64,000 nucleotides of DNA. Source: Sphaerotilus mobilis (GTDB lineage: Bacteria > Pseudomonadota > Gammaproteobacteria > Burkholderiales > Burkholderiaceae_C). A program made the position numbers and the translations under genes. The notes under the pieces are model-generated. The model was not told the DNA's origin and ran no database searches. It saw only the letters and a program-made list of their open reading frames with translations. The stretch spans positions 434,001-498,000 of the forward strand of contig NZ_SGWV01000011.1 in the NCBI RefSeq assembly GCF_004216565.1. The letters run 5' to 3'. This document shows positions 17,600-38,928 of this stretch, piece by piece. Every line of letters begins with the position of its first letter. Within the stretch, counting starts at the first letter, position 1.

Positions 17600-17779
17600 C
17601 GTTGCTCGCTACCGTCGGCCTTGGGCCGGATGGCTGTTGGCCTCGGGTCGTGAGACGATGCCATCGTCGCGGCCGAAGGGCCTGTCAAAAACCGTATGCA
17701 TCGTATTCCATGAAGCGATCGATAGCCATCGCGGTCCGCGTGACCGATGTCGCCGCCCGCCACCGTGCCGAGGTGGCCC

Positions 17780-22593: not shown

Positions 22594-22604
22594 CCCGCCA
22601 GCGT

Positions 22605-22633
22605 ATGACGATTCGATGACGCAGGTGTGACGA
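22605..22633 (-). promoter_or_regulatory. PhoB-box-like 11-bp iterated half-sites
   Basis: Reading toward ppk, CGTCAC, CGTCAT and CGTCAT recur with an exact 11-bp period. PhoB boxes are 7-bp CTGTCAT-type repeats spaced 4 bp apart, also an 11-bp period. The match is to the GTCA core only, and the array ends just 11 bp before the chosen start codon, which is close for a -35 element. Confidence 0.4.
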
Positions 22634-22742
22634 CGGACCCGCACCGCACCGACCTGGGGCCCGACACCGCGTCATCCCGCGCCGGTGTCGGATGAGGCAA
22701 AGACGGAACGCGGGAACAAGGGAACGAGACGCTTGAGCGCCC

Positions 22743-23591
22743 TCAGCCCCGCTCGGCCGCCTCGATCGTGTTGACCAGCAGCATCGTGATCGTCATCGGG
22801 CCGACGCCGCCGGGCACCGGGGTGATCCAGCCGGCGATGTGCTTGACGGCCTCGAAGTTGACGTCACCGCAGAGCTTGCCCTCGTCGTTGCGGTTCATGC
22901 CGACGTCGATGACGACGGCGCCGGGCTTGACCATGTCGGCCGTCAGCACGTTGCGCTTGCCCACCGCCGCGACCACGATGTCGGCCTCACGGGTGTGGTG
23001 GGCCAGGTCGGCGGTGCCGCTGTGGCAGACCGTCACGGTGGCGTTGGCGGCCAGCAGCATCATCGCCATGGGCTTGCCGACGATGTTGCTGCGGCCGATC
23101 ACCACCGCATGCTGGCCGCGCAGGTCTTTCCGGCCGATGGATTCGAGCATCTTCATGCAGCCATAGGGCGTGCAGGCCTTGAAGCCCTGCTCGCCAACCA
23201 TCAGGGCGCCGGCGCTGGCGACGTGGAAGCCGTCGACGTCCTTGTCCGGCGCGATGGCCTCGATCACCGCGTGGTCGTCGATGTGTCCGGGCAACGGCAG
23301 CTGGACCAGGATGCCGTGGATGCTCGGGTCCTTGTTCAGGGCATCGATGCGTGCGAGCAGCTCGGCCTGGGTCATCGAGGCCTCATGGCGCTCCAGCACC
23401 GAATGCAGGCCGCTCTCGGCGCAGGCCTTGACCTTGTTGCGCACATAGACCGCGCTGGCCGGGTTGTCGCCGACCAGGATCACGGCCAGGCCGGGCGTGA
23501 TGCCACGCGCGCCCAAGGCGGCGGCCCGTTGCGCGACATCGGCGCGGAGCTGGCGGGAAAGGGCGTTGCCGTCGATCAGTTGGGCAGTCAT
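22743..23591 (-). CDS. folD: bifunctional methylenetetrahydrofolate dehydrogenase/cyclohydrolase
   Basis: 282 residues, normal length. It carries the substrate-site YVRNKVKAC with its catalytic lysine, the QLPLPGHID loop, the nucleotide-binding [14 protein letters not shown] motif, and the C-terminal [12 protein letters not shown] signature. It interconverts 5,10-methylene-, methenyl- and 10-formyl-tetrahydrofolate. It is the last gene of a minus-strand series rpiR-like, Rieske ferredoxin, purU, folD, with 13 bp to purU. Its pairing with purU suggests disposal of one-carbon units, not biosynthesis. Confidence 0.97.
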
Positions 23592-23604
23592 CGCAGGCCT
23601 GCCC

Positions 23605-24453
23605 TCAGTTGAAGACCACCGTGCTGTGGCCGTTGAGCAGCACCCGCCGCTCGGTGTGCCACTTGACGGCGCGGGCCAGCACCTGGCTTTCGGTGTCGCG
23701 GCCGCGGGCGGTCAGGTCCTCCGGGCTCATCGCGTGATCCACCCGTGCGACGTCCTGCTCGATGATCGGGCCCTCGTCGAGGTCGGCGGTCACATAGTGC
23801 GCGGTCGCGCCGATCAGCTTCACGCCCCGGTCGTGGGCTTGGTAGTAGGGCCTGGCGCCCTTGAAGCTGGGCAGGAAGCTGTGGTGGATGTTGATCGCGC
23901 GGCCGGCGAGCTGGCGGCACATGTCGTCCGACAGCACCTGCATGTAGCGGGCCAGCACGACCAGTTCGGCGCCCTCGCGCTCGATGATCTCCAGCTGTCG
24001 TGCTTCGGCCTCGGGCTTGGTCGCCGCCGTCACTGGGATGTGGTGGAAGGGCACGTCGTGGCTGGCCGCCAGGCGGTAGAAGTCGCGGTGGTTGGAGACG
24101 ATCGCCTTGGGCGCGATCGGCAGCAGGCCGGACTTCCAGCGGAACAGCAGGTCGTTGAGGCAATGGCCGTGCTGGCTCACCAGGATCACGGTGGGCACCG
24201 GCGCGTGGTGCGCGTAGAGGCCGATGCCCATGGACCAGCCCGAAGCCATCGCGTGCAGGTCGGTGGTCAGGGCTTCCTTGGCCTCGGCCTCGCAGCTGAA
24301 CTGGACGCGCATGAAGAACTGTCCGGTGCGGACGTCCTGATGCTGGGCGGCTTCCTCGATGTTGGCTCCGTGGCGCAACAAGGTGCCAGAGACGGCATGC
24401 ACGATGCCGGGCTTGTCGGGGCAGGACAGGGTCAGGATGAAGGCGGCTCGCAT
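23605..24453 (-). CDS. purU: formyltetrahydrofolate deformylase
   Basis: 282 residues. An N-terminal ACT domain ([17 protein letters not shown]) is followed by a formyltransferase-fold domain with the catalytic region [16 protein letters not shown], a YHVT-like [10 protein letters not shown] segment and the invariant Asp. It hydrolyses 10-formyl-tetrahydrofolate to formate and free tetrahydrofolate. The ATG at 24453 starts the ACT domain. It lies 35 bp after the Rieske ferredoxin gene. PurU and FolD next to an oxygenase system is the known arrangement for formaldehyde released by demethylation. Confidence 0.96.
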
Positions 24454-24488
24454 GGCGGGGTTCCTTGGCAGGCTCGGGTTCGGGGGAC

Positions 24489-24797
24489 TCAGATCTCGAT
24501 GTGGACGACGCCGTCCTCGACCTTGGTGGGATAGGTCTTCAGCGCCACGCAGACCGGTGCGCCGAGCGGGCGGCCATCGCGGATGTCGAAGCGGCCGTTG
24601 TGCTTCGGGCACTCGATGACGTGGTCCATCACCAGGCCGTCGCACAGGTGGACGCGCTCGTGCGTGCACAGCCCGTCGCTGGCATAGGCGCGGTCTTCGA
24701 CGCGGTAGATCGCGAAGGTGCGGCCGGCGTGGTCGAAGCGGGTGACGTCCTCGTCGTCGATGGCGTCGAAGGAGACGGTGGGGATCCAGTTGGACAT
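24489..24797 (-). CDS. MocE-type Rieske [2Fe-2S] ferredoxin
   Basis: 102 residues, a stand-alone Rieske ferredoxin. Cluster ligands are Cys44-x-His46 and Cys63-x-x-His66, and the MSNWIP start and HNGRFDIRDG and LKTYPTKVE segments match what I recall of MocE, the ferredoxin of rhizopine (3-O-methyl-scyllo-inosamine) demethylation. It probably passes electrons to the membrane di-iron hydroxylase at 29839-30852. No matching ferredoxin reductase is visible in the window. The gene lies between the RpiR regulator gene and purU on one strand. Confidence 0.9.
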   Translation of the reverse strand: MSNWIPTVSFDAIDDEDVTRFDHAGRTFAIYRVEDRAYASDGLCTHERVHLCDGLVMDHVIECPKHNGRFDIRDGRPLGAPVCVALKTYPTKVEDGVVHIEI

Positions 24798-24820
24798 GGC
24801 GGTTTCCTTTCGCGGCGGAA

Positions 24821-24850
24821 GGTGAGGGAAGGTGAGGGAAGGTGGATGAA
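24821..24850. repeat. 10-bp direct repeat, three copies
   Basis: GGTGAGGGAA, GGTGAGGGAA and GGTGGATGAA follow each other between the regulator stop codon and the Rieske ferredoxin start codon. Confidence 0.8.
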
Positions 24851-24868
24851 TGGGTTCGCAGACGCGAT

Positions 24869-25651
24869 TCAGTCGTGGGCCCTGCGGTCCGGATGCAGCG
24901 CGTGCGTCAGGGCCTCGCTCAGCGCGAGGGCGTTGAGCAGGCGGCGCGAGTCGGTGCCCAGGCGCATGACGATGCCGTCGGGCCCGCCGCCGGTGAAGCG
25001 GTTCATGCGGCCGCGCGCCAGACTCAGCACGCGAGGGCCGTAGGACTGCGGTTCGCGCGGCCGGGTCTCGGGTGTGAGGTCCTGCCAGACGGCGACCTGC
25101 ACCAGCCAGTCGCCCGGCTGGGCCGGCGATCCGGGGTCGGGTCGCACCACCTGCAGGCCGCCGCGCAGGTGCGTGGCGATGGTCTCGTCGGTCGGGCCGG
25201 CGGCGATGACGTGGATGCGGCGCGCGCCGCGCAGCGCCTGTACCGCCAGGCGGAACTCGGGCCGCGCGACCAGGCCCTTGAGGCTGCCCAGGCCGAGCGC
25301 GCTGGCCTCGATGTCCTCCAGCGCACAGGCGCTGTCCGGGTGCAGACCATCGTCCGCAGGCTCGACGAGATCGGGCTTCTCGCGCTCGGCACGTTCGACC
25401 AGCGCGTACTTCAGCTCCTGGAAGCCGCTCAGCCCGAAACGCTTGGCCAGCCGCACGACCGAGGCCGGAATCGTCCCGCTGGCGCGCGCGACATCCTGGA
25501 TGCGGTGGTGGTGCAGCGTGGCCGCGTGTTCGATGCAGAAGCGCGCGACGTGGCCGAGCTTGGGACTCAGCGCGGGCAGTTCGCGCTGCATCGCCAGCAG
25601 CAGCCGCGACGGCGGATGTCCGCCGCGCAGGTCAAGGGAAACGTTCTCCAT
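24869..25651 (-). CDS. RpiR/MurR family transcriptional regulator
   Basis: 260 residues from the ATG that begins MENVSLDLRG; the open frame upstream is antisense to the LacI gene and not conserved. The N-terminal HTH_6 domain (LGHVARFCIEHAATLHHHRIQDVARASG, with the recognition helix near PASVVRLAKRFG) is followed by a SIS sugar-isomerase domain (RIHVIAAGPTDETIA) that normally senses a phosphorylated sugar. It leads the ferredoxin-purU-folD series and is divergent from the LacI gene 85 bp away. Confidence 0.9.
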   Translation of the reverse strand: MENVSLDLRGGHPPSRLLLAMQRELPALSPKLGHVARFCIEHAATLHHHRIQDVARASGTIPASVVRLAKRFGLSGFQELKYALVERAEREKPDLVEPADDGLHPDSACALEDIEASALGLGSLKGLVARPEFRLAVQALRGARRIHVIAAGPTDETIATHLRGGLQVVRPDPGSPAQPGDWLVQVAVWQDLTPETRPREPQSYGPRVLSLARGRMNRFTGGGPDGIVMRLGTDSRRLLNALALSEALTHALHPDRRAHD

Positions 25652-25736
25652 GGTCCGTGACTCCTGCGGCCAAAATGCCGCGACCCCAGTCCTTGTCGCT
25701 GCGCCCGTCAGCACCTGTCTGCTCCCCACATCCACC

Positions 25737-26756
25737 ATGGCCCGCGACCCTTCCAGCACCCGAAAGATCACCGCCAGCGACGTCGCCGAACGGGTGGGCG
25801 TGTCCAAGTGGACGGTCTCGCGCGCCTTCACCGACGGCGCCTCCATCGCGCCCGATGTGCGCGAACGTGTCCTGCAGGCCGCCGCCGAAATGGGCTACTC
25901 GCCCAACCTGCTGGCACGCAGCCTGTCGACCCGCAGCACGCGACTGGTAGCCGTGGTGGTCGATGAACTCGGCAACCCCAACCAGCTGTTCCTGATCAAC
26001 GAGGCGACCCGCCAGCTTCAAGCCCGCGGCTTCAGCTCGCTGCTGCTCAACCTCAGCCCCGAATACGGCCCGGCCGCAGCGCTGCGGCTGGCCGACCAGT
26101 TCCAGGTCGACGGGATCATGTTCATGGGCACCTCGCTGGACGAGGAACTCATCGAGCTGGCGCAGAAGATCCGCCGCGTGCCACTGGTCGTGGTCAGCCG
26201 CAACAGCTCGCTGTCGAACATCCCCTACGTCACCACCGACGGCTACGCGGCCGGTGCCGAGATCGCCGACCTGTTCCTGGCCCAGGGCCATCGCCGCATC
26301 GGCCACATGGCCGGCCCGCCCTCAGCGCGCACCGAACTGCGCCGGCTCGACGGCTTTCGTGACCGGCTGCAGGCGTGCGGCGTGCCGCTCACCTGCATCC
26401 TGACCTCTGACCACTACCGCCGTGAGCAGGGCATGCAGTCCTTGCTGAAGTACCTGGAGTCGACCCCCCGCGACCAGCGCATCGAGGCGCTGTTCTGCGA
26501 GAGCGACATCCTGGCCATCGGCGCGCTCGATGCCCTGCACCTGAGCGGCAACCCGCACCGCATCGCGGTGGTCGGCTTCGACGACATCGAGATCGCGTCG
26601 GCACCGCCCTACGAGCTGACCACCTTCCGCCAGCCGACGGCCTATCTGGTGGGCGAGGCGATCCGGCGCATCCTCGATGCCGATGCCGTCGACGCCGGTT
26701 CGCTGATGGCACCGGGCACGCTGGTGCTGCGGTCGTCACATCGCCGTCTGGCCTGA
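25737..26756 (+). CDS. LacI family transcriptional regulator
   Basis: 339 residues. LacI-type helix-turn-helix ASDVAERVGVSKWTVSRAF, hinge region MGYSPNLLARSLSTR, and a periplasmic-binding-protein-like effector domain with YVTTDGYAAG, GHRRIGHMAG and VVGFDDIEIASA. It probably represses the nearby sugar catabolic genes and is released by a sugar or cyclitol. Two 16-bp palindromes of LacI-operator type (29572-29587 and 29793-29808) are the likely targets. It is divergent from the RpiR gene and convergent with the dehydrogenase gene. Confidence 0.93.
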   Translation: MARDPSSTRKITASDVAERVGVSKWTVSRAFTDGASIAPDVRERVLQAAAEMGYSPNLLARSLSTRSTRLVAVVVDELGNPNQLFLINEATRQLQARGFSSLLLNLSPEYGPAAALRLADQFQVDGIMFMGTSLDEELIELAQKIRRVPLVVVSRNSSLSNIPYVTTDGYAAGAEIADLFLAQGHRRIGHMAGPPSARTELRRLDGFRDRLQACGVPLTCILTSDHYRREQGMQSLLKYLESTPRDQRIEALFCESDILAIGALDALHLSGNPHRIAVVGFDDIEIASAPPYELTTFRQPTAYLVGEAIRRILDADAVDAGSLMAPGTLVLRSSHRRLA

Positions 26757-26774
26757 CGGCGGTGCGACGCGCCT

Positions 26775-27788
26775 TCAGCCTTCGAGGACCGGGCGACCGT
26801 CCTTCAGGCGCACGGTCTTGCCGGTCTTGCACGACAGCGTCGCGGCTTCGGCCACGGCCAGCGCGTTGACGCCGTCCTGCAACGTGACCGGGTAGCCGGT
26901 GCCGGCCTGGATGGCGTCGATGAAGGCGCGCCATTCGGCCTCGTAGGCGCGCATGTAGCGCTCCAGGAAGAAGTACTCCGGCTTGGCGCTGGTGGCACCG
27001 GCCGTGGTCACCTTGTTGACCGTGTTCTCGAGCACGTTGCCCGCCTGCAGCAGGCCGGTCGAACCCAGCAGTTCCAGGCGCTGGTCGTAGCCGTATACGG
27101 CACGGCGGCTGTTCTTGATGACGGCGATGCGGCCGTCGGCGTAGTGCAGCGTGATCACGGCGGTGTCGACGTCACCGGCCTCGCCGATGGCGGGGTCGAC
27201 GATGGACGAGCCGATGGCGGTGACCGTCTCGGGTGCACCACCGAAGATCCAGCAGGCCATGTCGAAGTCGTGGATGGCCATGTCGCGGAACAAGCCGCCC
27301 GAGACCTGGATGTAGCTGACCGGCGGCGGGGCCGGGTCAAAGGAGGTGATCGACAGCAGCTCGCCCTTGCCGATCTCGCCGGCATCGAGCGCGCGCTTGA
27401 CCGCCGCGAAGTTGGGGTCGAAGCGGCGGTTGAAGCCGATCATCACGGGCTTGCCCGACGCGGCCACGGCCGCCTGGCAGGCCAGCGCACGTTCGAGGCT
27501 CAGATCGACCGGCTTCTCGCACAGCACGGCCTTGCCAGCGGCGGCAGCGGCCTCGATCAGGCCGGCGTGGGTGTCGGTCGAGGTGGCGATCAGCACCGCG
27601 TCGATCGAGCGGTCGTTGATGATGTCTTGCGAGCTGCGCGCCTGCGCACCGTAGGCGGCGGCGAGCTTCTCGGCCGCGGCCTGGTTGACGTCCGACACGG
27701 CGACCAGCTGGCTGTCCGCGTTGGCTGCGATGCTCTTGGCGTGCACGTTGCCGATGCGGCCTGCGCCGAGCAATCCGACCTTGATCAT
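26775..27788 (-). CDS. inositol 2-dehydrogenase-like oxidoreductase (Gfo/Idh/MocA)
   Basis: 337 residues. The Rossmann motif GLLGAGRIGNVHA opens the protein. The catalytic lysine lies in CEKPVDL (Lys92), and the Asp169/His173 pair in FRDMAIHDFD matches the Lys-Asp-His arrangement of IolG. FNRRFDPNF is also typical of myo-inositol dehydrogenases. It oxidises a ring hydroxyl of a sugar or cyclitol with NAD+. It is third in the minus-strand operon isomerase-like, PanB-like, dehydrogenase. The exact substrate is uncertain. Confidence 0.9.
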   Translation of the reverse strand: MIKVGLLGAGRIGNVHAKSIAANADSQLVAVSDVNQAAAEKLAAAYGAQARSSQDIINDRSIDAVLIATSTDTHAGLIEAAAAAGKAVLCEKPVDLSLERALACQAAVAASGKPVMIGFNRRFDPNFAAVKRALDAGEIGKGELLSITSFDPAPPPVSYIQVSGGLFRDMAIHDFDMACWIFGGAPETVTAIGSSIVDPAIGEAGDVDTAVITLHYADGRIAVIKNSRRAVYGYDQRLELLGSTGLLQAGNVLENTVNKVTTAGATSAKPEYFFLERYMRAYEAEWRAFIDAIQAGTGYPVTLQDGVNALAVAEAATLSCKTGKTVRLKDGRPVLEG

Positions 27789-27897
27789 GATGGGAACTCC
27801 AAAGGTGAGGGCGGGCGCGCACGGCGCGCCGCAGTGGGTTGGAACAAACAAGCGTAGGCCAAGGCCAACACGAAGGCGCGCGGGCTTGGACCCTGGC

Positions 27898-28722
27898 TCA
27901 GTCGGTGAGCCTGCCGAGGAACTGTTCGAATTCTGCGTCGGCGATCGGCACGACGTGTTCGGGCGCTGGGTAGGCGCCGGTCTGCACATCGGCGACGAAC
28001 TCCTGGAAGGCGGCGACACGTTCTCGCTGCAGGCGCTCGAACTCGGCCGCAAAGTTGCGGTAGGTCTTGGCGTGGCGCGGCTTGTGGCCACGGGTGTGGC
28101 CCAGCACGTCCTCGGTGAAGAGGTATTGCGCATCGGCACCGGCACCGGCGCCCATGCCCAGCATCAGCACCGAGGTGCGGCGCGAGATCTCGGCGGCGAC
28201 CCGATCGGGCACGACCTCCAACTCGGCCGCGAAGACGCCGATGGCTTCGAGTCGCTGCACGTGTTCCCAGACCGCGAGCGCGCTGGCGGCGGTCTTGCCG
28301 ACGGCCTTGAAGCCGCCCGTCCAGGTCGCTTGCGACGGGATCAGGCCGACATGGCCGACGACCGGCACGGCCTCCTCGCACAGCCGCTTCTGCACCGCCA
28401 GCGAGGCGGCGCAATAGAAGCAGTCGCCGCCCAGGGCCATGAACTTGAAGGCCTCGCGCAGGTAGTCCTCGGCGGTGATCAGCTGGCCGTAGGGGCCGTA
28501 GGGCAGGCCGACCTGCACGAAGCAGGTGCCGGCGGCGGCGCGCATGTCGGCGGTGAAGAAGCGGCCTTCGATGGACAGCATGTCCACGCCGGCCGCATCG
28601 GCAGCAGCGGCCTCCTCGGGCGTGGTGACGTAGAGCATCGAGATCTGGCGCTTGCCCTTCAGGGCGCGCATGTCGGCCACGGTCGGGCGGCGGGTGCGGG
28701 CGGTGTTCGTGGTGAGGCTCAT
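27898..28722 (-). CDS. KPHMT (PanB)-superfamily protein with altered active site
   Basis: 274 residues with the ketopantoate hydroxymethyltransferase barrel: VPVVGHVGLIPSQ, GGFKAVGKT and LGMGAGAGADAQ align well with PanB. Compared with E. coli PanB as I recall it, metal ligand Asp84 is Gly72, Lys112 is Tyr103, Glu114 is Ala105 and Asp45 is replaced by Glu52 or a neighbour. Only the base Glu181 is kept (Glu169). It is therefore unlikely to be an ordinary pantothenate enzyme. Its operon position between an isomerase-like and a dehydrogenase gene points to a sugar-catabolic C-C bond step. Function unproven. Confidence 0.82.
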   Translation of the reverse strand: MSLTTNTARTRRPTVADMRALKGKRQISMLYVTTPEEAAAADAAGVDMLSIEGRFFTADMRAAAGTCFVQVGLPYGPYGQLITAEDYLREAFKFMALGGDCFYCAASLAVQKRLCEEAVPVVGHVGLIPSQATWTGGFKAVGKTAASALAVWEHVQRLEAIGVFAAELEVVPDRVAAEISRRTSVLMLGMGAGAGADAQYLFTEDVLGHTRGHKPRHAKTYRNFAAEFERLQRERVAAFQEFVADVQTGAYPAPEHVVPIADAEFEQFLGRLTD

Positions 28723-28736
28723 GGGGGCGTCCCGGG

Positions 28737-29528
28737 TCAGACCGTGAAGGCGCTGCGGAAGGCTTCCAGCGCGGCATCCGCGTCGCCGGAGGCAAACGCC
28801 TCCATGCAGACCGCACCGCTGTAGCCCATGGCCTTGAGAGCACGCGCCACGCCGGCGTAGTTGACCTCGCCCGTGCCGGGCTCCATGCGGCCGGGCACGT
28901 CGGCGACCTGCACCTCGCCGATCCACGGCAGGCAGGCGCGGCAGAGTTCGACCAGGTTGCCCTCGCCGATCTGCGCGTGATAGAGGTCCAGGTTCAGCCG
29001 CAGGCCCGGGCGGTTGATCGACGAGACCAGCGCCAGCGTGTCGCGGGCCAGCGCGAAGGGCACGCCCGGGTGATCGACCGGCAGGTTGAGGTTCTCGATC
29101 ATGAAGGTCACGCCTTCACGTTCGGCCAGATCGGCGATGCGCATGAGCGTGTCGCGGGCCTTGAGCCACATCGCGCCGGTCACGGTCTCGCAGGGGGTGA
29201 CCGGCAGACCGCGGTCGCCCAGGCCGGTGCCGTGCAGGTTCAGGCGGTCGACGTTCAGCCGCTTGCCGATGGCGATGGCCTCGGTGGCGGTGGCCAGCAG
29301 CTCGTCGGCGCCGGCATCGTCGGCCAGCCGGCCGCGCAGGTAGCCGGTCATCGACGAGAAGCGTGTGCCCGCAGCAGCGGCCTGTTCCAGCATCGCCAGC
29401 TCATGGTTCTGCCAGCCCCAGATGCCGACCTGGTAGCCCAGCTCGGTCAGGCGGGACAGGCGCCAGGCCATCGGCCGGTCGTTCCAGAGCATTTCGGCGC
29501 AGGCGGCCAGGACAAAAGGAGGGTTCAC
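28737..29528 (-). CDS. hydroxypyruvate isomerase-like TIM-barrel protein
   Basis: 263 residues of the xylose-isomerase-like TIM-barrel superfamily, closest in pattern to Hyi and IolE/IolI proteins (LGYQVGIWGW, LNLHGTG, FMIENLNLP, LNLDLYHAQIGEGN, IGEVQVADVPGR, CMEAF). Metal-binding Glu and Asp candidates lie at ENLN, DLYH and MEAF. The start codon is GTG. It is the first gene of the minus-strand operon, and a LacI-type palindrome lies 44 bp upstream. It probably isomerises or dehydrates a keto-sugar or keto-inositol intermediate. Confidence 0.85.
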   Translation of the reverse strand: MNPPFVLAACAEMLWNDRPMAWRLSRLTELGYQVGIWGWQNHELAMLEQAAAAGTRFSSMTGYLRGRLADDAGADELLATATEAIAIGKRLNVDRLNLHGTGLGDRGLPVTPCETVTGAMWLKARDTLMRIADLAEREGVTFMIENLNLPVDHPGVPFALARDTLALVSSINRPGLRLNLDLYHAQIGEGNLVELCRACLPWIGEVQVADVPGRMEPGTGEVNYAGVARALKAMGYSGAVCMEAFASGDADAALEAFRSAFTV

Positions 29529-29571
29529 GGCAGGGTTCCTTCGGTGGGTTCGGGGTGCAGTGTAGAAAGCG

Positions 29572-29587
29572 TTGCAATCGGGTGCAA
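29572..29587. promoter_or_regulatory. LacI-type operator O1
   Basis: The 16-bp palindrome TTGCAATCGGGTGCAA, with a central CG as usual for LacI-family operators, lies 44 bp before the hydroxypyruvate-isomerase-like gene. It matches the reverse complement of the site at 29793 at most positions. Confidence 0.75.
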
Positions 29588-29792
29588 CAAGAACAGAAAG
29601 AATTTTCTCTTCCGACCGGCTGGATCTCGGGAAAACGATAGGTTCTCACGAGTGGCGCTGGCCAGCCAGGGTGCAGATGACGGGGTTGTTCAAGGTTCCC
29701 TCTCGTTGCCGCAGGGCTTCTTGCTCTCTGCAATCCCGATTTCGTCCGGGAAAGTACGTAGAAGTATTTTTTCAAGTGACAGATAAAGTCTA

Positions 29793-29808
29793 TTGCACTC
29801 GGTTGCAA
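29793..29808. promoter_or_regulatory. LacI-type operator O2
   Basis: The 16-bp palindrome TTGCACTCGGTTGCAA lies 30 bp before the hydroxylase start codon. It shares the TTGCA-N6-TGCAA frame with O1 and would overlap the promoter of the plus-strand operon. Confidence 0.75.
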
Positions 29809-29838
29809 GAACCGCCCTCCAACAGGACGCAGCAGATC

Positions 29839-30852
29839 ATGGATGACTCGCACTTTGGCGTGCGCAACAAGCGTGGTGACTGGGCCCCGAACGGCCGTCG
29901 CGAGGTCGCCCCCTTCTGGGCCTGGCCGCCGCAGCTGATCAAGGTGCTGAAGTGGCTGCCCGGCTACGTCTGGCCGTGGAACGCCTTCCACATGACCACC
30001 GCGCTGCTGTGGTGGTTCTTCGTCGTGCCCGACGTCGACACGCTCCAGACGCTGGACTGGGGCTGGCCGGCGCTGCTGCTGGCGGCCAACTGGGTCGGCT
30101 GCCTGATCTGGTACGGCGCCTTCGAATGGCGGCTTTACCGCCAACGGGCGCAGGGCTCGCGCTTCAAGTACCACCACAAGTTCCCGTCCGAGTCGCCCTC
30201 GGACGTGTTCTGGTTCAAGAGCCAGAACCTCGACAACTTCCTGCGCAGCTTCCTGATCTCGATCCCGCTGTGGACGCTGGTGCAGGTGATCTTCCTGTGG
30301 TGTTGGGCGAACGGCATCGGCGCCTGGCTGACGTGGGACGAGCACGCGCTCTGGCTGACGCTGCTGGTGCTGTTGTCGCCGGCCCTCCACGAGGTCCACT
30401 TCTACGCCATCCACCGGCTGATCCACACGCCGACGCTTTACAAGTGGATCCACTCGATCCACCACAACTCGGTCAACCCGAGCCCGATCTCGTCGCTGAG
30501 CATGCACCCGGTCGAGGCCTTCCTGTACCACGCGGTCGCGCTGTGGCACCTGGTGATCCCGTCCAACCCGGTCGTGGCGATGTTCCAGCTGCACGCGGCC
30601 GGCTTCGGTGCCGTCAACGGCCACATCGGCTTCGACCGCATCGAGCTGGGCGGCGAGCAGACGATGCAGAGCCACGCCTTCTTGCACCACCTGCACCACA
30701 AGCACTTCGAGGTGAACTTCGGCGGCGACGGCCTGGTGCCGCTGGACCTCTGGCTGGGCACCTGGCATGACGGCAGCAAGGACGGCGAACGCCAGATGCA
30801 GGCCCGCTACGAACGCAAGCTGGCCCGCATGAATGCGGGCAAGGCGAGCTGA
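29839..30852 (+). CDS. membrane di-iron hydroxylase (fatty acid hydroxylase superfamily)
   Basis: 337 residues. Hydrophobic stretches (about 52-64, 78-92, 138-165, 170-185) span the membrane. The histidine clusters of the sterol desaturase/fatty acid hydroxylase family are complete: HFYAIHRLIH (187-196), HSIHH (205-209), His223 and HHLHH (283-287). These bind two irons that activate oxygen. It leads the plus-strand operon that continues with a sugar ABC importer, an unusual setting for a lipid enzyme. With the MocE-type ferredoxin nearby it may oxidise the methyl group of a methylated sugar. A lipid substrate is the main alternative. Confidence 0.85.
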   Translation: MDDSHFGVRNKRGDWAPNGRREVAPFWAWPPQLIKVLKWLPGYVWPWNAFHMTTALLWWFFVVPDVDTLQTLDWGWPALLLAANWVGCLIWYGAFEWRLYRQRAQGSRFKYHHKFPSESPSDVFWFKSQNLDNFLRSFLISIPLWTLVQVIFLWCWANGIGAWLTWDEHALWLTLLVLLSPALHEVHFYAIHRLIHTPTLYKWIHSIHHNSVNPSPISSLSMHPVEAFLYHAVALWHLVIPSNPVVAMFQLHAAGFGAVNGHIGFDRIELGGEQTMQSHAFLHHLHHKHFEVNFGGDGLVPLDLWLGTWHDGSKDGERQMQARYERKLARMNAGKAS

Positions 30853-30921
30853 GCCGCACGAGGCGCGCGCCGCTGCGCTCGCCTCGAACCTCCGATTCCT
30901 ACGCGCTGATTCCACCCGGAT

Positions 30922-30966
30922 GGCCGCCATGCGCGGGCGGCCTCGTCACGTCCGTGCTGCACGGAC
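30922..30966 (+). other. two consecutive intercistronic hairpins
   Basis: GGCCGCC (30922-30928) pairs with GGCGGCC (30936-30942), and GTCCGTG (30950-30956) pairs with CACGGAC (30960-30966). They lie just before the binding-protein ribosome site. No T run follows, so they are not simple terminators; processing or partial termination is possible. Confidence 0.5.
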
Positions 30967-30997
30967 CCACCGTTCCTTCCAACATCAGGAGACCACC

Positions 30998-31975
30998 ATG
31001 ACCTTCCTCAGCAAGACCTTCAAGCTGATCGCCGCCACTGCCGCGATCGTGGCCGCCACCAGCGCCATGGCCGCTGGTCCACGCATCTTCGTGATCGGCG
31101 GCAAGGCTGACGACCCGTTCTGGTCGCGTGTCAAGAAGGGTGCAGACGATGCCGGTCTGGTGGTCAAGGCCGCCGGTGGCAGCGTGACCTGGCTCGGTCC
31201 GCAGACCTATGACAACCTCGGCCCGGACGCCGCCAAGCTGATCCGCACCGCGCTGAGCCAGAAGCCCGATGCCATCGTTGGTCCGGACTGGGTGCCCGAG
31301 GCGATGGACGCCGCCTTCAAGGAAGTGGTGGCTGCTGGCGTGCCACTGATCATCTACAACGCCGGTGGCATGGAAGCCGCCAAGCGCCTGGGCGCGATGA
31401 ACTACGTGGGCAGCGAGGAATACGTCGCCGGCATGGGCGGTGGCGAGTACTTCACCAAGAGTGGTGCCAAGAACGTGCTGTGCGTGAACACGCAGCCGGG
31501 CTCGACCAACCAGGAATCGCGTTGCAAGGGCGTGGCCGATGGCATGGCCAAGGCCGGTGGCAAGTCGTCCCAGCTGCCGCTGCCGGCATCGGCCTTCGGC
31601 AACCCGACGGCGGTGGCGCAGGCCGTCAAGGCCGCGCTGCAGAAGGACAAGACGGTCGACGGGATCATCACCATCAGCGCCGGTGACGCGACCAGCGCGG
31701 CCACCGGCATCGCCCAGGCCGGTCTGGTCAAGCAGGTCAAGCTCGGCACCTTCGACATCGACCCGACCAACCTCGCGCGCATCCAGGACGGCACGCAGCT
31801 GTTCTGCATCGACCAGCAACCCTATCTGCAGGGCTATCTGGCGGTGTCCATGCTCAACAGCTTCGTGCAGTACGGCCTGAAGGTGCCGGCCGCACCGCTG
31901 CTGACGGGCCCTGGCATCGTCGACGCGTCCAACGTCGCGGCCACGCTGGCTGGTGCCAAGGCCGGCGCGCGCTGA
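30998..31975 (+). CDS. sugar ABC transporter substrate-binding protein (FrcB/RbsB type)
   Basis: 325 residues. Sec signal peptide ending ATSAMAAG, then a type I periplasmic-binding fold with VIGGKADDPFWSRVKKGADDA, DAIVGPDWVPEAMDAA, GTFDIDPTN and FCIDQQPYLQGYLA. The last motif is typical of fructose/ribose-type binding proteins of the Frc family. It captures a sugar or polyol in the periplasm. CAGGAG lies before the ATG. It is followed by a strong hairpin and then the permease and ATPase genes of the same operon. Confidence 0.94.
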   Translation: MTFLSKTFKLIAATAAIVAATSAMAAGPRIFVIGGKADDPFWSRVKKGADDAGLVVKAAGGSVTWLGPQTYDNLGPDAAKLIRTALSQKPDAIVGPDWVPEAMDAAFKEVVAAGVPLIIYNAGGMEAAKRLGAMNYVGSEEYVAGMGGGEYFTKSGAKNVLCVNTQPGSTNQESRCKGVADGMAKAGGKSSQLPLPASAFGNPTAVAQAVKAALQKDKTVDGIITISAGDATSAATGIAQAGLVKQVKLGTFDIDPTNLARIQDGTQLFCIDQQPYLQGYLAVSMLNSFVQYGLKVPAAPLLTGPGIVDASNVAATLAGAKAGAR

Positions 31976-31999
31976 TCGAAGCCTGATCTTCACGTCGTT

Positions 32000-32039
32000 C
32001 GCCGGTCGGGTCCGGGCCCCATCCCGGGCCTGACCGGCG
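32000..32039 (+). other. strong intercistronic hairpin after the binding-protein gene
   Basis: CGCCGGTC (32000-32007) pairs with GACCGGCG (32032-32039), and the stem continues inward through a GGnCCGGG/CCCGGnCC pairing. No T run follows. It would stabilise the upstream binding-protein message relative to the permease message. Confidence 0.65.
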
Positions 32040-32107
32040 GGGTCGGTCGTCTTCACGGCGGCTGGCGGCCCCTGTTGTCCCTCCGCCGTGACACCGACGC
32101 CTGGAAC

Positions 32108-33184
32108 ATGAACCCGTCCATCACCAGCGCCCCGCTTACCGGGGCCACATCTGAACAGAGTCCGCGCATGCCCACCTTCTCACTTGGCAACCTCATGCGA
32201 CGGCCCGAGACCGGCTCCTTCATCGGCCTTGTCTCGGTCTTCATCTTTTTCGCGGTCTTTGGCGGCGAGACCTTCCTGTCGGCCAGCGGCGCGGCCAGCT
32301 GGCTCAACATCGCCGCCGAGCTGGGCATCATCGCCTTGCCGGTGGGCCTCTTGATGATCGCCGGCCACCTCGACCTGTCGGTCGGCAGCGTGATCCCGGC
32401 CAGCTCGATGACGGTGGCCATCGTCTCGGGCCATTTCGGCCTGCCGATGCCCTTGGGCATCGCCGCCTCGCTGGCCCTGGGCCTGGCGATCGGCTTCATC
32501 AACGGCTACCTGATCGTGCGCACCGACCTGCCGTCCTTCGTGGTCACGCTGGCCACGCTGTTCGCGGTCGCCGGCCTGACGCTGGGCCTGTCGGTCATCA
32601 TCGCGGGCAGCACCAGCGTCGCGCTCAAGGCCGACCCGATCACCAAGGCCATCTTCGGCGACTACATCGACGGCAAGTTCCAGATCGTGCTGCTGTGGTG
32701 GATCGCCGCCGCGCTGCTGGTGGGCTTCATCCTCAGCCGCACCCGCTACGGCAACTGGATCCTGGCCCTCGGCGGCGACAAGGTCAGCGCCCGCAATGCC
32801 GGCATCCCGACCGATCGGCTCAACATCGCGCTCTACATGGGCAGCGGCTTTTGCGCGGCCTTCGTGGGCATGTGCCAGGCCATCCTCTACAACAGCGCGC
32901 AGGTCTCGGCTGGCCAGTCCTTCATCTTCAACTCGATCATCGCGGTGGTGATCGGCGGCGTGATCCTGACCGGCGGCTACGGCTCGGTGCTGGGCATCGT
33001 GCTGGGCACCATGACGTTCGCGATCGTGAACCAGGGCATCTACTACACCGGCTTCGACGCCAACTGGGCCAGCCTGATCATCGGCGTGCTGCTGCTGGCT
33101 GCCGTGCTGCTCAACAACAGCTTCCGGACCAAGGCGTTGTCGCACTCGAAGTCCACCGCCAAGACCGCCGTCAAGAAGGCCTGA
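32108..33184 (+). CDS. sugar ABC transporter permease (FrcC/RbsC type)
   Basis: 358 residues, about ten membrane helices, of the branched-type ribose/xylose/fructose permease family. Typical segments are LGIIALPVGLLMIAGHLDLSVG near residue 75, INGYLIVRTDLPSFVVTLAT, and GGVILTGGYGSVLGIVLGT near the end. The start is uncertain: ATG 32108 is chosen, ATG 32168 is an alternative that would remove 20 residues. It pairs with the ATPase 2 bp downstream and the binding protein upstream. Confidence 0.93.
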   Translation: MNPSITSAPLTGATSEQSPRMPTFSLGNLMRRPETGSFIGLVSVFIFFAVFGGETFLSASGAASWLNIAAELGIIALPVGLLMIAGHLDLSVGSVIPASSMTVAIVSGHFGLPMPLGIAASLALGLAIGFINGYLIVRTDLPSFVVTLATLFAVAGLTLGLSVIIAGSTSVALKADPITKAIFGDYIDGKFQIVLLWWIAAALLVGFILSRTRYGNWILALGGDKVSARNAGIPTDRLNIALYMGSGFCAAFVGMCQAILYNSAQVSAGQSFIFNSIIAVVIGGVILTGGYGSVLGIVLGTMTFAIVNQGIYYTGFDANWASLIIGVLLLAAVLLNNSFRTKALSHSKSTAKTAVKKA

Positions 33185-33186
33185 CC

Positions 33187-34008
33187 ATGACCACCCCCCT
33201 GCTCAAGCTCGACGGCATCAACAAGTCCTTCGGCCCGGTCGATGTCCTGCACGACATCTCGCTGGAGGTCCATGCCGGCGAGGTCCTCTGCCTGCTGGGC
33301 GACAACGGCGCGGGCAAGTCCACGCTGATTCGCATCCTCTCGGGTGTGCACCAGCCCACCCGCGGCACGATGATGATGAATGGCCAGCCGGTGGCCTTCA
33401 CCTCGCCGCGCGTGGCCAGCGACCACGGCATCTCCACGGTGCACCAGTTCGGCGGCACCTTCCCGCTGATGAGCATCGGCCGCTCCTTCTTCGTCGGCGC
33501 CGAGCCCACCAAGCGCTTCGGGCCGTTCGAGGTGTTCGACCGCAAGACCGCCAACGAGATCGCGGTGCGCGAGATGCGCGAGCTGGGCATCACCCGCATC
33601 GACGATGGCAACCGCCTGGTTGGCGGCCTGTCCGGTGGCGAGCGTCAGGCGCTGGCGATCGCCCGCGCGGTGCACTTCGGCGCCAGCGTGCTGATCCTCG
33701 ACGAGCCGACCGCTGCGCTGGGCGTCAAGGAAGCCGCGCATGTGCTGCGCATCGTCTTGCAGGCCCGCAAAAAGGGCATCGCGGTGATCTTCATCACCCA
33801 CAACGTGACCCATGCGATGACGGTGGGCGACCACTTCGCGGTGCTGATCCGGGGTGCCAAGGCAGCCGATTTCCGCAAGGGCGAGAAGACCCGCGAGGAG
33901 ATCACCGACCTGATGGCCGGCGGCGAGGCCATGGCCGAACTGGAAGCCGAGATCGAGGGCTATATGGCGACGCACGACGGCCATCCGCCGCCGGTGGCCG
34001 CGGCCTGA
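33187..34008 (+). CDS. sugar ABC transporter ATP-binding protein (FrcA type)
   Basis: 273 residues, a single ATPase domain, unlike the double-domain RbsA; single-domain subunits are typical of Frc-type importers. Walker A is GDNGAGKST (near 36-44), the signature is LSGGERQ, Walker B is VLILDEP, and the switch histidine lies in FITHN. A Phe/Arg-rich insert around FFVGAEPTKRFGPFEVFD also fits this group. It is the last gene of the plus-strand operon, 2 bp after the permease. It is convergent with the diguanylate cyclase gene 16 bp away. Confidence 0.94.
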   Translation: MTTPLLKLDGINKSFGPVDVLHDISLEVHAGEVLCLLGDNGAGKSTLIRILSGVHQPTRGTMMMNGQPVAFTSPRVASDHGISTVHQFGGTFPLMSIGRSFFVGAEPTKRFGPFEVFDRKTANEIAVREMRELGITRIDDGNRLVGGLSGGERQALAIARAVHFGASVLILDEPTAALGVKEAAHVLRIVLQARKKGIAVIFITHNVTHAMTVGDHFAVLIRGAKAADFRKGEKTREEITDLMAGGEAMAELEAEIEGYMATHDGHPPPVAAA

Positions 34009-34024
34009 GCCGGGGCCGGCCGCC

Positions 34025-35908
34025 TCACCAGGCTTCGGCGGTGACGGTGTCGATGCTGGTGTCGATGCCGGTGTCGCCCGTCGGGTCGTCGCGGCGCCGA
34101 GCGTCCTTGCCCAGCATCGCCAGCGTCGCCGGATCGGCGATGCGGGCGCAGTCCCGGCCGGCTGCCTTGGCCTGGTAGAGCGCCATGTCGGCCAGCTGCA
34201 CCAGTTCCTCGGGTCGGCTGGACATGCTGGCGTCGGCGATGCCGAAGCTGGCGGTGTAGAGCGGCACCCGGCCACCCCGCAGGGCCGCCGCGAGCTGGTG
34301 GCGGATCGCGTCGACCGTCCGTTGGGCGGCCAGCGCATCGGCCTGGGCCAGCAGCAGCGTGAACTCCTCGCCGCCCCAGCGACCCGCCAGGTCGCCGTCA
34401 CCCAGCGTGTCACGCAGGACCTCGGAGAAGACCCGCAGCGCAGCGTCGCCGGTGGCATGGCCGTAGCGGTCATTGAGCAGCTTGAAGTGGTCCAGGTCGC
34501 ACATCACCACCGCATGCGGCTGGCCGCTGGCGACCAGCGCGCGCAGCCGCTGTTCAAGGGTGCGGCGGTTGGGCAGGCCGGTGAGGGTGTCGGTGGCGGC
34601 CTGGATCTGGGTCCGCTCGAAGGCCCGCACCGTGCCGATGCGCATGCCCAACTGGCCGCCCATGACCGTGATCTGCTGCGCCTGGGCCGGACTGAGCGGC
34701 CGCTCCGGCGTGCCAGCGGCATGCAGCACGCCCAAGGCGCGGCCCATGAACGTCACGGGCACGCAGACCGCCGACGCGGTGCCGCAGGCGCGCCCACGCA
34801 GGTGCTCGCAGGCGTGCAGGTCGGCGCTGCTGTCGAAGGTGACCGCGGTGCCGCGCCGCACCGCCACGCAGTCGTAGGGCGAGCGCACGCCGCAGCCCGG
34901 GCTGCCAGCGCCGGGGTGTTCGGCCACCCGCTCCATCTGGGCCCGGCTGGAGTCCGAGATCAGCAGCTCCATCGGGTGCGCGGCAGAGACCTCGCCCATC
35001 GCCCGGGCCGCGACGGTACAGACCTGGTGCTCGCGGTCGGCCATGTCCAGCGCATCGCTCAGGCGTTGCCCGAAGGCGGCCAGGCGGGCCTCGCGGCGCA
35101 TGTCGTCGATCATGGTGTTGAGGCTGCCGGCCATGCGGTCGACCGCCGCGCCCAGGGCGCCCAGCTCATCGGAGCGTCCGGTGCTGGCGCGGCGCGTCAG
35201 ATCGCCATCGGCAATGGCCTGGGCGACGCTGCACAGCTCGCCCAGCCGGCGCCGGATCGCCAGCGTCATCAGCGCGACGATAGCGCTGGCCACGCCGATG
35301 GTGATCACGCAGGTCCAGACCAGCGAACGGCGGGCCCGCGTGGCCTCGCGGGCCGCCATCAGTTGCGCCTCGCGCAGGGCCTCGCCGATCTGCGCGCCCT
35401 GCTGTTCCAGCTCGCCGACGAGGTGCCGGAACTGGCCGTCGAAAGCCGGCAGTGCCGCCAGCGCCGCCTCGCGGCGGTCGAGCGCCTGGCGGGCCAGCTC
35501 CAGCGCCGACTGCCCATAGGCACGCGCGGCGCTGCGGTTGCGGCGCACCTGCTCGATCAGTTCGGCCGGCAGCTCGGTGAAGGTCGACAGCCGGTCCAGC
35601 GCGTCCTCCAGCTCCTGGGCATCGTCGGCGACGTGGCGCAGCACGTCCTCTTGCGCCAGTTGCGGCACCTGGCCGATCAGCAGCGAGGCCAGCACGTCCG
35701 AGCGCAGCGCGTCATGGACCATGTCGGCCTGCTTGTTGAGGTGCAGCGCTTCGGCCAGACGGACCTGCCGGGCCTGGGCAACGTCCTGGTCCGACGAACT
35801 CTGCCAGGCCAGCATCGCCAGCAGCAGCAAGGCGGCCGCGACCGCCGCGTTCAGCGTGGCGAGCTTGGCGCGCAAGGACATGGCACCGACGAGAGACGGC
35901 AGGTTCAT
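34025..35908 (-). CDS. membrane HAMP-GAF-GGDEF diguanylate cyclase
   Basis: 627 residues. Transmembrane helix (about 13-31), helical periplasmic sensor, second helix (about 187-207), HAMP (about 208-258), GAF domain (about 275-425) with several cysteines (CGVRSPYDC, HACEHLRGRACG, AVC), and GGDEF domain (about 455-600). The active site reads GGEEF at 512-516. The inhibitory RxxD position reads GDGD, so product inhibition through that site is unlikely. The cysteines in the GAF domain could bind a metal or sense redox state. It stands alone between the ABC operon and the IclR gene. Confidence 0.92.
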   Translation of the reverse strand: MNLPSLVGAMSLRAKLATLNAAVAAALLLLAMLAWQSSSDQDVAQARQVRLAEALHLNKQADMVHDALRSDVLASLLIGQVPQLAQEDVLRHVADDAQELEDALDRLSTFTELPAELIEQVRRNRSAARAYGQSALELARQALDRREAALAALPAFDGQFRHLVGELEQQGAQIGEALREAQLMAAREATRARRSLVWTCVITIGVASAIVALMTLAIRRRLGELCSVAQAIADGDLTRRASTGRSDELGALGAAVDRMAGSLNTMIDDMRREARLAAFGQRLSDALDMADREHQVCTVAARAMGEVSAAHPMELLISDSSRAQMERVAEHPGAGSPGCGVRSPYDCVAVRRGTAVTFDSSADLHACEHLRGRACGTASAVCVPVTFMGRALGVLHAAGTPERPLSPAQAQQITVMGGQLGMRIGTVRAFERTQIQAATDTLTGLPNRRTLEQRLRALVASGQPHAVVMCDLDHFKLLNDRYGHATGDAALRVFSEVLRDTLGDGDLAGRWGGEEFTLLLAQADALAAQRTVDAIRHQLAAALRGGRVPLYTASFGIADASMSSRPEELVQLADMALYQAKAAGRDCARIADPATLAMLGKDARRRDDPTGDTGIDTSIDTVTAEAW

Positions 35909-38128: not shown

Positions 38129-38174
38129 TCGGGCGGTTGACGCTGCGGCCGTGGAACCACCGCTTCGTCGTGTT

Positions 38175-38250
38175 TGGCGCGCCCGGCTGGGATCGAACCA
38201 GCGACCCTTGGCTTCGGAGGCCAATACTCTATCCACTGAGCTACGGGCGC
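38175..38250 (-). tRNA. tRNA-Arg (CCG)
   Basis: 76-nt cloverleaf including an encoded CCA end. Acceptor GCGCCCG pairs with CGGGCGC, D arm GCTCAG, anticodon stem TTGGC/GCCAA around loop CTCCGAA (anticodon CCG), and T arm CTGGTTCGATCCCAG. It reads CGG arginine codons, common in this GC-rich DNA. Confidence 0.96.
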
Positions 38251-38382
38251 AAAACGGCGAGTCTAGCAGGCTTGTGGCCGGTGTCTGCACGCAACACCGG
38301 CGCGCCGGACCGGCCCCCTATAATTCCGGGGTTTTGCGCACCGTTGAACGGTCGCGCGGCGGATTCAACCCATGAGGACACC

Positions 38383-38928
38383 ATGAGCGACGCTCAACAC
38401 GCCCACGACGCACACGCAGACCACGGCGAAGCCCACGAAGGCCCGATCAAGACGTCCAACCAGCTGATCGCCGCTGTCGTCGCCGCCTTTGTGGTCCCGA
38501 TCTTCGTGATCGTGCTGCTGGTGAAGAACGTGGGCGTCGATGCGCTAGAAGGTGCCGGTGTCGACGCGATGAGCGCGGAAGCCACGGCCGCGCGCATCCA
38601 GCCGATCGGCCAGGTCGCGATCAAGCTTGAAGGCGGCCCGGCCAAGTCTGGCGAAGACGTCTTCAAGGGCCAGTGCGGTGCCTGCCACACCGCTGGTCTT
38701 GCCGGTGCGCCCAAGTTTGGCGACGCCGCTGCCTGGACCGCCCGCCTGTCGACCGGCCTGGATGCGCTGGTGAACTCGGCCCTCAAGGGCAAGGGCGCGA
38801 TGGGCGCCCAGGGCGGTGGCGATTTCAGCGACTACGAGATCGCCCGCGCCGTGGTCTACATGGCCAACGCAGCCGGCGGCACGTTCGAGGAGCCGAAGGC
38901 GCCCGCCGCTGCTTCTGCTGCGCAGTGA
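38383..38928 (+). CDS. membrane-anchored cytochrome c5-type protein
   Basis: 181 residues. The N-terminal 20 residues are rich in His/Asp/Glu (HAHDAHADHGEAHEG). A single membrane helix (about 28-48) anchors a periplasmic c-type haem domain with CGACH (Cys98, Cys101, His102) and a candidate axial methionine near KGKGAMGAQGGG. The YEIARAVVYM ending is typical of cytochrome c5. It carries electrons, probably to a terminal oxidase. GAGGACACC precedes the ATG. A bidirectional terminator follows. Confidence 0.92.
   Translation: MSDAQHAHDAHADHGEAHEGPIKTSNQLIAAVVAAFVVPIFVIVLLVKNVGVDALEGAGVDAMSAEATAARIQPIGQVAIKLEGGPAKSGEDVFKGQCGACHTAGLAGAPKFGDAAAWTARLSTGLDALVNSALKGKGAMGAQGGGDFSDYEIARAVVYMANAAGGTFEEPKAPAAASAAQ

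Follow-up and report, generated by a model that had tools for sequence, protein, structure and literature searches.

Demethylation of rhizopine (3-O-methyl-scyllo-inosamine, 3-O-MSI) by MocDEF releases formaldehyde. The catabolic system of Rhizobium leguminosarum and Sinorhizobium meliloti (mocDEF, mocABCR and iol) comprises a membrane oxygenase, a MocE ferredoxin, a sugar-type binding protein, a Gfo/Idh dehydrogenase and a TIM barrel, and is linked to inositol degradation (passages of PMC10107442, PMC3538637, PMC5789663 and PMC2593844); MocD is called the rhizopine oxygenase, converting 3-O-MSI to scyllo-inosamine, i.e. with loss of the methyl group (passage of PMC2593844). The same elements are found in a gene cluster at positions 22743–34008 of a 64,000-nucleotide stretch of Sphaerotilus mobilis DNA (contig NZ_SGWV01000011.1, positions 434,001 to 498,000; hereafter the window). 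The cluster differs from rhizopine systems in several respects. Its oxygenase belongs to PF04116, whereas the desaturases tested from mocDEF-like operons of relatives (L015 and a copy on contig C4 of S. mobilis itself) belong to PF00487. It has no in-cluster reductase; it carries folD, purU and a gene for a PanB-like barrel (hereafter PanBL), akin to ketopantoate hydroxymethyltransferase (PanB); its regulators are of LacI and RpiR type, with no MocR found; and its binding protein scores below the rhizopine cut-off. We class it as a variant Moc-type pathway and not as rhizopine catabolism proper, and comparison across genomes identified PanBL as the most constant partner of the oxygenase–MocE pair. 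In the literature searched, from which subscription papers were mostly absent, no paper was recognized that describes PanBL with mocDEF or with this gene set, or that gives an enzyme set for the demethylation of methylated inositols.

The known product of PurU is formate. In a passage of a nicotine review, formaldehyde is printed as the PurU product. As in the window, FolD and/or PurU lie beside an enzyme making methylene-tetrahydrofolate (methylene-H4F) from a methyl group in purU–mabO–folD on pAO1 and in glyA–soxBDAG–purU (passages of PMC3891541 and PMC3691474). In those systems, however, the N-methyl amine oxidase itself makes methylene-H4F, whereas the membrane oxygenase of the window would release formaldehyde. 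The role proposed here for PanBL resembles, by role alone, that of Fae and Gfa, which speed the condensation of formaldehyde with tetrahydromethanopterin (H4MPT) and glutathione, respectively; unlike these, PanBL would use H4F as carrier, a condensation given as spontaneous (passages of PMC8879981).

For comparison of neighborhoods, a genome collection was scanned with PanBL and the best 80 of 559 confirmed stretches were analyzed, 54 of which span at least 18 kb. These 54 long loci contained MocE in 49 cases and an oxygenase in 50 (36 with PF04116 only, 13 with PF00487 only and 1 with both), together with a reductase in 17, PurU in 14 (13 by a stricter count) and FolD in 6. As a control, the flanks of the true panB gene, about 9.5 kb to either side, were taken from 40 of the same genomes; four of the 40 control stretches were only 11.5–12.5 kb long because of contig ends. 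Oxygenase and MocE occurred together at 37/40 PanBL loci and at 0/40 true-panB loci (Fisher 2e-19). Among the controls, a reductase match of 30% turned up at one locus, and PanBL was flagged at seven, at 33–36% identity, which was taken as true PanB itself. Second PanBL loci, present in 20 of the 40 genomes, had an oxygenase in every case (20/20) and MocE in addition in 19/20. A phylum sample of 398 genomes drawn evenly was also scanned; PanBL was found in 19, with 24 loci in the 18 genomes other than S. mobilis. An oxygenase was present at 20 of these 24 loci, and oxygenase with MocE at 18. By hand count, a MocE match at E 1e-25 was seen in 18/19 PanBL genomes versus 12/379 others (Fisher 2e-22). 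Sixteen loci fetched as low-score paralogues were mostly PanBL loci already counted and were excluded from the neighborhood counts; the only new ones, L194 and L196, were added to the tree and residue rows described below. The original prediction had named the PanB-like barrel correctly, but only as one item among many.

FolD and PurU, by comparison, are optional in such clusters. Either was found at 10/40 PanBL loci versus 0/40 true-panB loci of the same genomes (Fisher 0.001), and PurU was found at 3/20 second PanBL loci. A constant core of FolD and PurU was ruled out, PanBL being the more constant. Nevertheless, 7 of the best 80 loci carry hydroxylase, MocE, PurU and FolD together, and the composition of the cluster is therefore beyond chance; the lack of any conserved co-occurrence of these four, which would have spoken against the original prediction, was not what was found. 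The pathway originally predicted, oxidative demethylation of a methylated sugar or cyclitol, is partly supported, by the co-occurrence of importer, membrane oxygenase, MocE, inositol dehydrogenase (IolG) and TIM barrel, with folD and purU accompanying them in a subset only.

The search for the same gene set in other genomes, suggested with that prediction, was positive: the set recurs in Leptothrix discophora and across rhizobia and Rhodobacterales, including Neotabrizicola. Among the matches listed, which may leave out records of the genome itself, the nearest named locus was that of L. discophora, with a PanBL 94% identical. Gemmobacter fulvus, Sinorhizobium sp. RAC02, Rhizobium hidalgonense, Pararhizobium A13 and Rhizobium 32-5/1 share the arrangement hydroxylase–binding protein–permease–ATPase–MocE–TIM barrel–PanBL–IolG. 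All of these but G. fulvus add a reductase and PurU; RAC02 and R. hidalgonense also have FolD, with reductase, PurU and FolD in a single run with the set. A MocF-type reductase is present in the sister clusters L007–L009, L019 and L022. A tblastn search of plasmids gave matches to the hydroxylase in 115 records and to PanBL in 625, the latter count including true PanB.

Taken as a whole, import and oxidative demethylation of a methylated cyclitol or sugar, with PanBL capturing the one-carbon (C1) unit, is a reading that we hold slightly likelier right than wrong, and several observations weigh against it. To our knowledge, no folate-binding residues of PanB are available that could be compared in PanBL. 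The predicted model of the hydroxylase (predicted local distance difference test, pLDDT, 80) gave 0 PDB matches in a fold search, and no MocF-type FAD (flavin adenine dinucleotide) reductase was found within the window. PurU was found at only 1/24 phylum-sample loci, and outside the selected sets folD and purU are only weakly linked to such clusters. An oxygenase was missing from 4 of the 54 long loci (L026, L031, L076 and L088) and from 14 of the best 80, 10 of these on stretches shorter than 14 kb. Four of the 24 phylum-sample loci also had none: L162 (at a contig end), L163 (which has MocE), L184 (partial PanBL) and L185 (a 33% outlier). Two others, L178 and L181, had an oxygenase without MocE. 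Conversely, 12 phylum-sample genomes have MocE without PanBL, and Moc-like clusters with a PF04116 hydroxylase and MocE in Shinella, on S. meliloti pSymA and in Rhizobium ACO-34A (L011, L012 and L013) have no PanBL in the stretch. Because of these 12 genomes and the Shinella and ACO-34A clusters, PanBL is not required by every such oxygenase. Finally, H4F and formaldehyde condense without an enzyme (passage of the 2022 review PMC8879981).

A Pfam scan of 20 open reading frames (ORFs) in L026, L076, L088 and L185 recognized no other demethylase. The 22 further ORF families that recur most often at 98 loci were judged by eye from their first 60 residues, and no formaldehyde dehydrogenase was recognized. 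L026 (5448–10807; Mesorhizobium), which adjoins conjugation genes, has PanBL accompanied by PurU, a pair of LacI genes and a TIM barrel, with no oxygenase within 10 kb. In L185 (G166:C2), a 33%-identical PanB homologue follows a tripartite ATP-independent periplasmic (TRAP) transporter with no oxygenase nearby; its function is perhaps different.

The window oxygenase (29839–30852, + strand; PF04116, 59.9 bits) is a membrane di-iron hydroxylase in which histidines 192, 196, 205, 208, 209, 223, 237, 262, 283, 286 and 287 reach at least 97% conservation across 47 rows. Two distinct Pfam families of membrane oxygenase take the same place beside one ferredoxin: a PanBL tree of 124 rows requires 10 or more switches between PF04116 and PF00487, the tree having been made by a quick method with 56/121 inner branches open and a few labels doubtful where both oxygenase types lie nearby. 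Loci of the desaturase type in S. meliloti and R. leguminosarum 248 are arranged as LacI | desaturase–MocE–reductase–PanBL; many mocDEF-like operons thus seem to have a fourth gene, PanBL, that has been overlooked. This layout agrees with the description of mocDEF clusters beside a LacI-family gene (passage of PMC3538637); neither "panB" nor "hydroxymethyltransferase" occurs in the text of PMC3538637.

These arrangements also bear on what the oxygenase attacks. Lipids are the usual substrates of those PF04116 proteins whose function is known, and the hydroxylated position could be a C-methyl group, a ring carbon or a lipid instead of an O-methyl group, with the folate genes as unrelated housekeeping. 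We regard this as improbable, since a sugar importer shares the operon with the oxygenase, the PF00487 type adjoins the same MocE and PanBL at other loci, and the genome has second copies of FolD and PurU. Lipid hydroxylation in particular was thought unlikely from the gene context. Oxidative demethylation by the cluster, on the other hand, we consider probable.

For PanBL itself (27898–28722, − strand; PF02548, 129 bits), sequence and structure were compared with those of PanB. The score against the panB model TIGR00222 was 101.5 bits, below the cut-off of 207.55. The AF2 model (pLDDT 85) had PanB structures as its first 28 Foldseek hits, with TM-scores of 0.58–0.74 to the model; weaker hits below these included aldolases and lyases, among others. 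Residues were compared between 39 true PanB rows (40 loci, one without a clean row) and 146 PanBL rows. The Asp of DLPF (38/39 in true PanB) is Gly in 143/146 PanBL rows, a conserved Lys (39/39) is Tyr in 145/146, and a conserved Glu (38/39) is Ala in 110/146 or Ser in 33/146. The Asp of GDSLG (39/39) is mostly Gly, Pro or Ser and is retained in 21/146 rows, in a part of the alignment that is gappy, and the segment following GDSLGM is missing. Two residues are retained in all 146 rows, His in the HxGL motif and Glu in LE..P. PanBL thus shares fold, sequence kinship and the conserved His and Glu with PanB; what it lacks is the conserved Asp/Lys/Glu set, the extra segment and an above-cut-off score. 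We take the Asp and Glu of PanB to be the metal ligands, as in the E. coli enzyme. Because the conserved Asp/Lys/Glu site is lost, keto-acid enolate chemistry by PanBL is improbable. As judged from its residues, PanBL is not a pantothenate enzyme; a role in pantothenate synthesis was ruled out by the lost site together with a true PanB elsewhere in the genome. A C1/folate role could survive loss of the site, PanB being an enzyme that uses methylene-H4F (passage of PMC4814558).

The aldolases and lyases among the weaker Foldseek hits fit another explanation, in which PanBL is an aldolase, epimerase or lyase acting on an oxidized cyclitol or keto-sugar skeleton and having nothing to do with the methyl group, and FolD and PurU treat formaldehyde that has condensed spontaneously with H4F. 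Gene spacing agrees with it: PanBL lies at most 150 bp from the TIM barrel in 34/35 long loci with both, and next to IolG in 27/35. PanBL is, however, also found in the S. meliloti and R. leguminosarum operons described above, where other sugar enzymes are few or absent, and the presumed metal-site Asp and Glu of PanB are lost, so that we judge this role for PanBL unlikely, if well worth keeping in mind. Action of PanBL on the C1 unit stands, in our estimate, at even chances. More tentatively, PanBL might load H4F with formaldehyde or, directly, with the hydroxymethyl group from the hemiacetal that the oxygenase would produce. It would then be a folate counterpart of Fae and Gfa, derived from a vitamin-synthesis enzyme without its keto-acid site and standard in many Moc-type membrane demethylases of Alphaproteobacteria and some Betaproteobacteria; this seems possible but rather less likely than a C1 role as such.

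The remaining genes of the cluster, every one of which was found as originally listed, form with those above four blocks within 22743–34008: folD–purU–mocE–rpiR (−), lacI (+), iolG–PanBL–TIM barrel (−) and hydroxylase–binding protein–permease–ATPase (+). FolD (22743–23591, − strand), a 5,10-methylene-H4F dehydrogenase/cyclohydrolase, scored 524 bits against NCBIfam NF010786 (cut-off 421), and PurU (23605–24453, − strand), a 10-formyl-H4F deformylase, 320 bits against TIGR00655 (cut-off 285.95). In the MocE-family Rieske [2Fe-2S] ferredoxin (24489–24797, − strand; TIGR02377, 144.3 bits, cut-off 136.15), the positions with at least 97% conservation across 73 aligned rows include Cys44, His46, Cys63 and His66. 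The RpiR-type regulator (24869–25651, − strand; PF01418) matched in its helix-turn-helix domain and not in the SIS domain, unlike the RpiR on contig C4. It is followed by the LacI-family regulator (25737–26756, + strand; PF00356 and PF13377). The importer consists of a periplasmic binding protein (30998–31975, + strand; PF13407), a sugar ATP-binding cassette (ABC) permease (32108–33184, + strand; PF02653, with sugar permease models scoring under cut-off) and a single-domain sugar ABC ATPase (33187–34008, + strand; PF00005). Translation starts of the RpiR, LacI and ATPase genes were chosen in the analysis. Outside the cluster, a c-type cytochrome ORF (38137–38928) overlaps an opposite-strand tRNA-Arg(CCG) gene (38175–38250), and its true start is probably downstream.

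The IolG-type inositol dehydrogenase (26775–27788, − strand) scored 429 bits against TIGR04380 (cut-off 355), and its best PDB match was 4hkt, inositol 2-dehydrogenase (E 2e-95). The AP_endonuc_2 TIM barrel (28737–29528, − strand; PF01261, 98.7 bits), which is keto-sugar/inosose isomerase-like, fell under the cut-off of all 7 NCBIfam models matched, including hydroxypyruvate isomerase TIGR03234 (104 bits, cut-off 353). The binding protein is distantly like rhizopine-binding proteins (195.8 bits against NF052284, cut-off 420), and its closest PDB match, at E 3.6e-35, was 4ru1, which we take to be an inositol-bound entry. That the cluster is the rhizopine pathway itself, a Moc system moved into a betaproteobacterium, could be argued from this weak likeness, from the MocE in the window and from clusters in which the same hydroxylase family occurs beside a gene annotated as a rhizopine-binding protein. 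The binding-protein score is far under the cut-off, the dehydrogenase scores as IolG by the IolG model, no MocR-type gene was found among the ORFs scanned at 17747–40270, and the family is carried by many Rhodobacterales; we therefore regard this explanation as very improbable. A cyclitol as the substrate class is fairly likely, with modest support from the IolG score, the 4hkt match, the distant rhizopine-binding likeness and iolC/iolD near some relatives, where they adjoin desaturase-type loci, and in the genome itself. The same IolG, binding-protein and iolC/iolD evidence speaks for the sugar or cyclitol of the original prediction, the binding protein with the reservation just given. A methylated sugar is a possible alternative, as suggested by a distant Bradyrhizobium cluster with a ribokinase and a GH88 enzyme instead. 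In R. mesoamericanum, pinitol-rich exudate raised mocDEF homologues and iol genes, which the authors read as rhizopine use (passage of PMC5789663).

The window belongs to a 4.65-Mb genome, and the other genes that the pathway would need were sought on its contigs (labelled C4, C5, C8 and C9). The true PanB is encoded at C5:396104 (282 bits, above the cut-off), and PanBL is the sole other match to the panB model in the genome. FolD has 2 matches and PurU 2 over the cut-off; with second copies of both and a true PanB elsewhere, the window copies of FolD, PurU and the PanB-like gene are extra. That the window held the sole FolD and PurU was ruled out in the same way. Contig C4 holds the best MocF-type reductase match (46% identity to the Shinella reductase), whose neighbors are iol genes and a MocDE pair of PF00487 type; a match at C5:333581 ranks second (42%). 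About 22 kb of C4 carries two IolG-like genes (one over the cut-off), RpiR, the MocF-like reductase, IolE, IolD and IolC, together with LacI, genes for a sugar importer and a PF00487 desaturase, and a MocE that shares 68% identity with that of the window. With these iol genes and the reductase, the cell can supply iol enzymes and a reductase for the window pathway. This second cluster (C4:26000–62000; L116 and L117) is without PanBL; L. discophora locus L196, similar to it, has PanBL and PurU. Two more MocE-like ferredoxins, under the family cut-off, lie at C8:438–737 and C9:74396–74695.

The proposed pathway builds, at the level of sequence, on gene identities, the conserved neighborhood, the altered PanBL site and two palindromes. 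The substrate taken up by the importer would be a methylated cyclitol or a sugar closely related to one, with an O-methyl-inositol as the likeliest candidate. The di-iron hydroxylase, with electrons from MocE and a reductase encoded elsewhere, would hydroxylate the O-methyl carbon, and the hemiacetal would decay to free cyclitol and formaldehyde. PanBL would capture the C1 unit on H4F as 5,10-methylene-H4F, which FolD and PurU would convert to formate, while IolG and the TIM barrel would oxidize and rearrange the freed ring for the iol pathway encoded on another contig. The exact palindrome TTGCA-N6-TGCAA, by exact-motif count, has 2 copies in the 64 kb (0.02 expected), at 29572–29587 and 29793–29808, both between the two divergent main operons; one copy lies directly upstream of the hydroxylase gene in L. 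discophora (L023). The two copies are likely LacI operators, through which LacI would repress both operons. A sigma-70 promoter scan of 22600–34400 found 0, with 0.7 expected.

The cluster has probably moved horizontally, as judged from its distribution. At E 1e-40 the hydroxylase was found only in S. mobilis among 60 genomes of the family (0/59 others), and PanBL in 5/13 genomes of the genus, S. mobilis included; a third genus member (L228) has the TIM barrel–PanBL–IolG–LacI–hydroxylase part. The cluster adjoins ppk in S. mobilis. Long residence there was ruled out, since ppx and ppk lie together without it in 6/6 genus genomes fetched (of 12 others) and in L. discophora it is on a contig other than that of ppk.

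Plants commonly contain methylated inositols, pinitol among them, as solutes. In the root exudate of Mimosa pudica, pinitol is the most concentrated component (passage of PMC5789663). If the proposed pathway is true, it would name genes for the demethylation of methylated inositols. The new point is PanBL as partner of the oxygenase–MocE pair, which may catch the toxic formaldehyde released by the demethylase. This would give a function to hundreds of PanB-like proteins, many of them annotated as 3-methyl-2-oxobutanoate hydroxymethyltransferase, and would make testable whether an enzyme speeds the capture of formaldehyde by H4F, a step given as spontaneous in a passage of PMC8879981.

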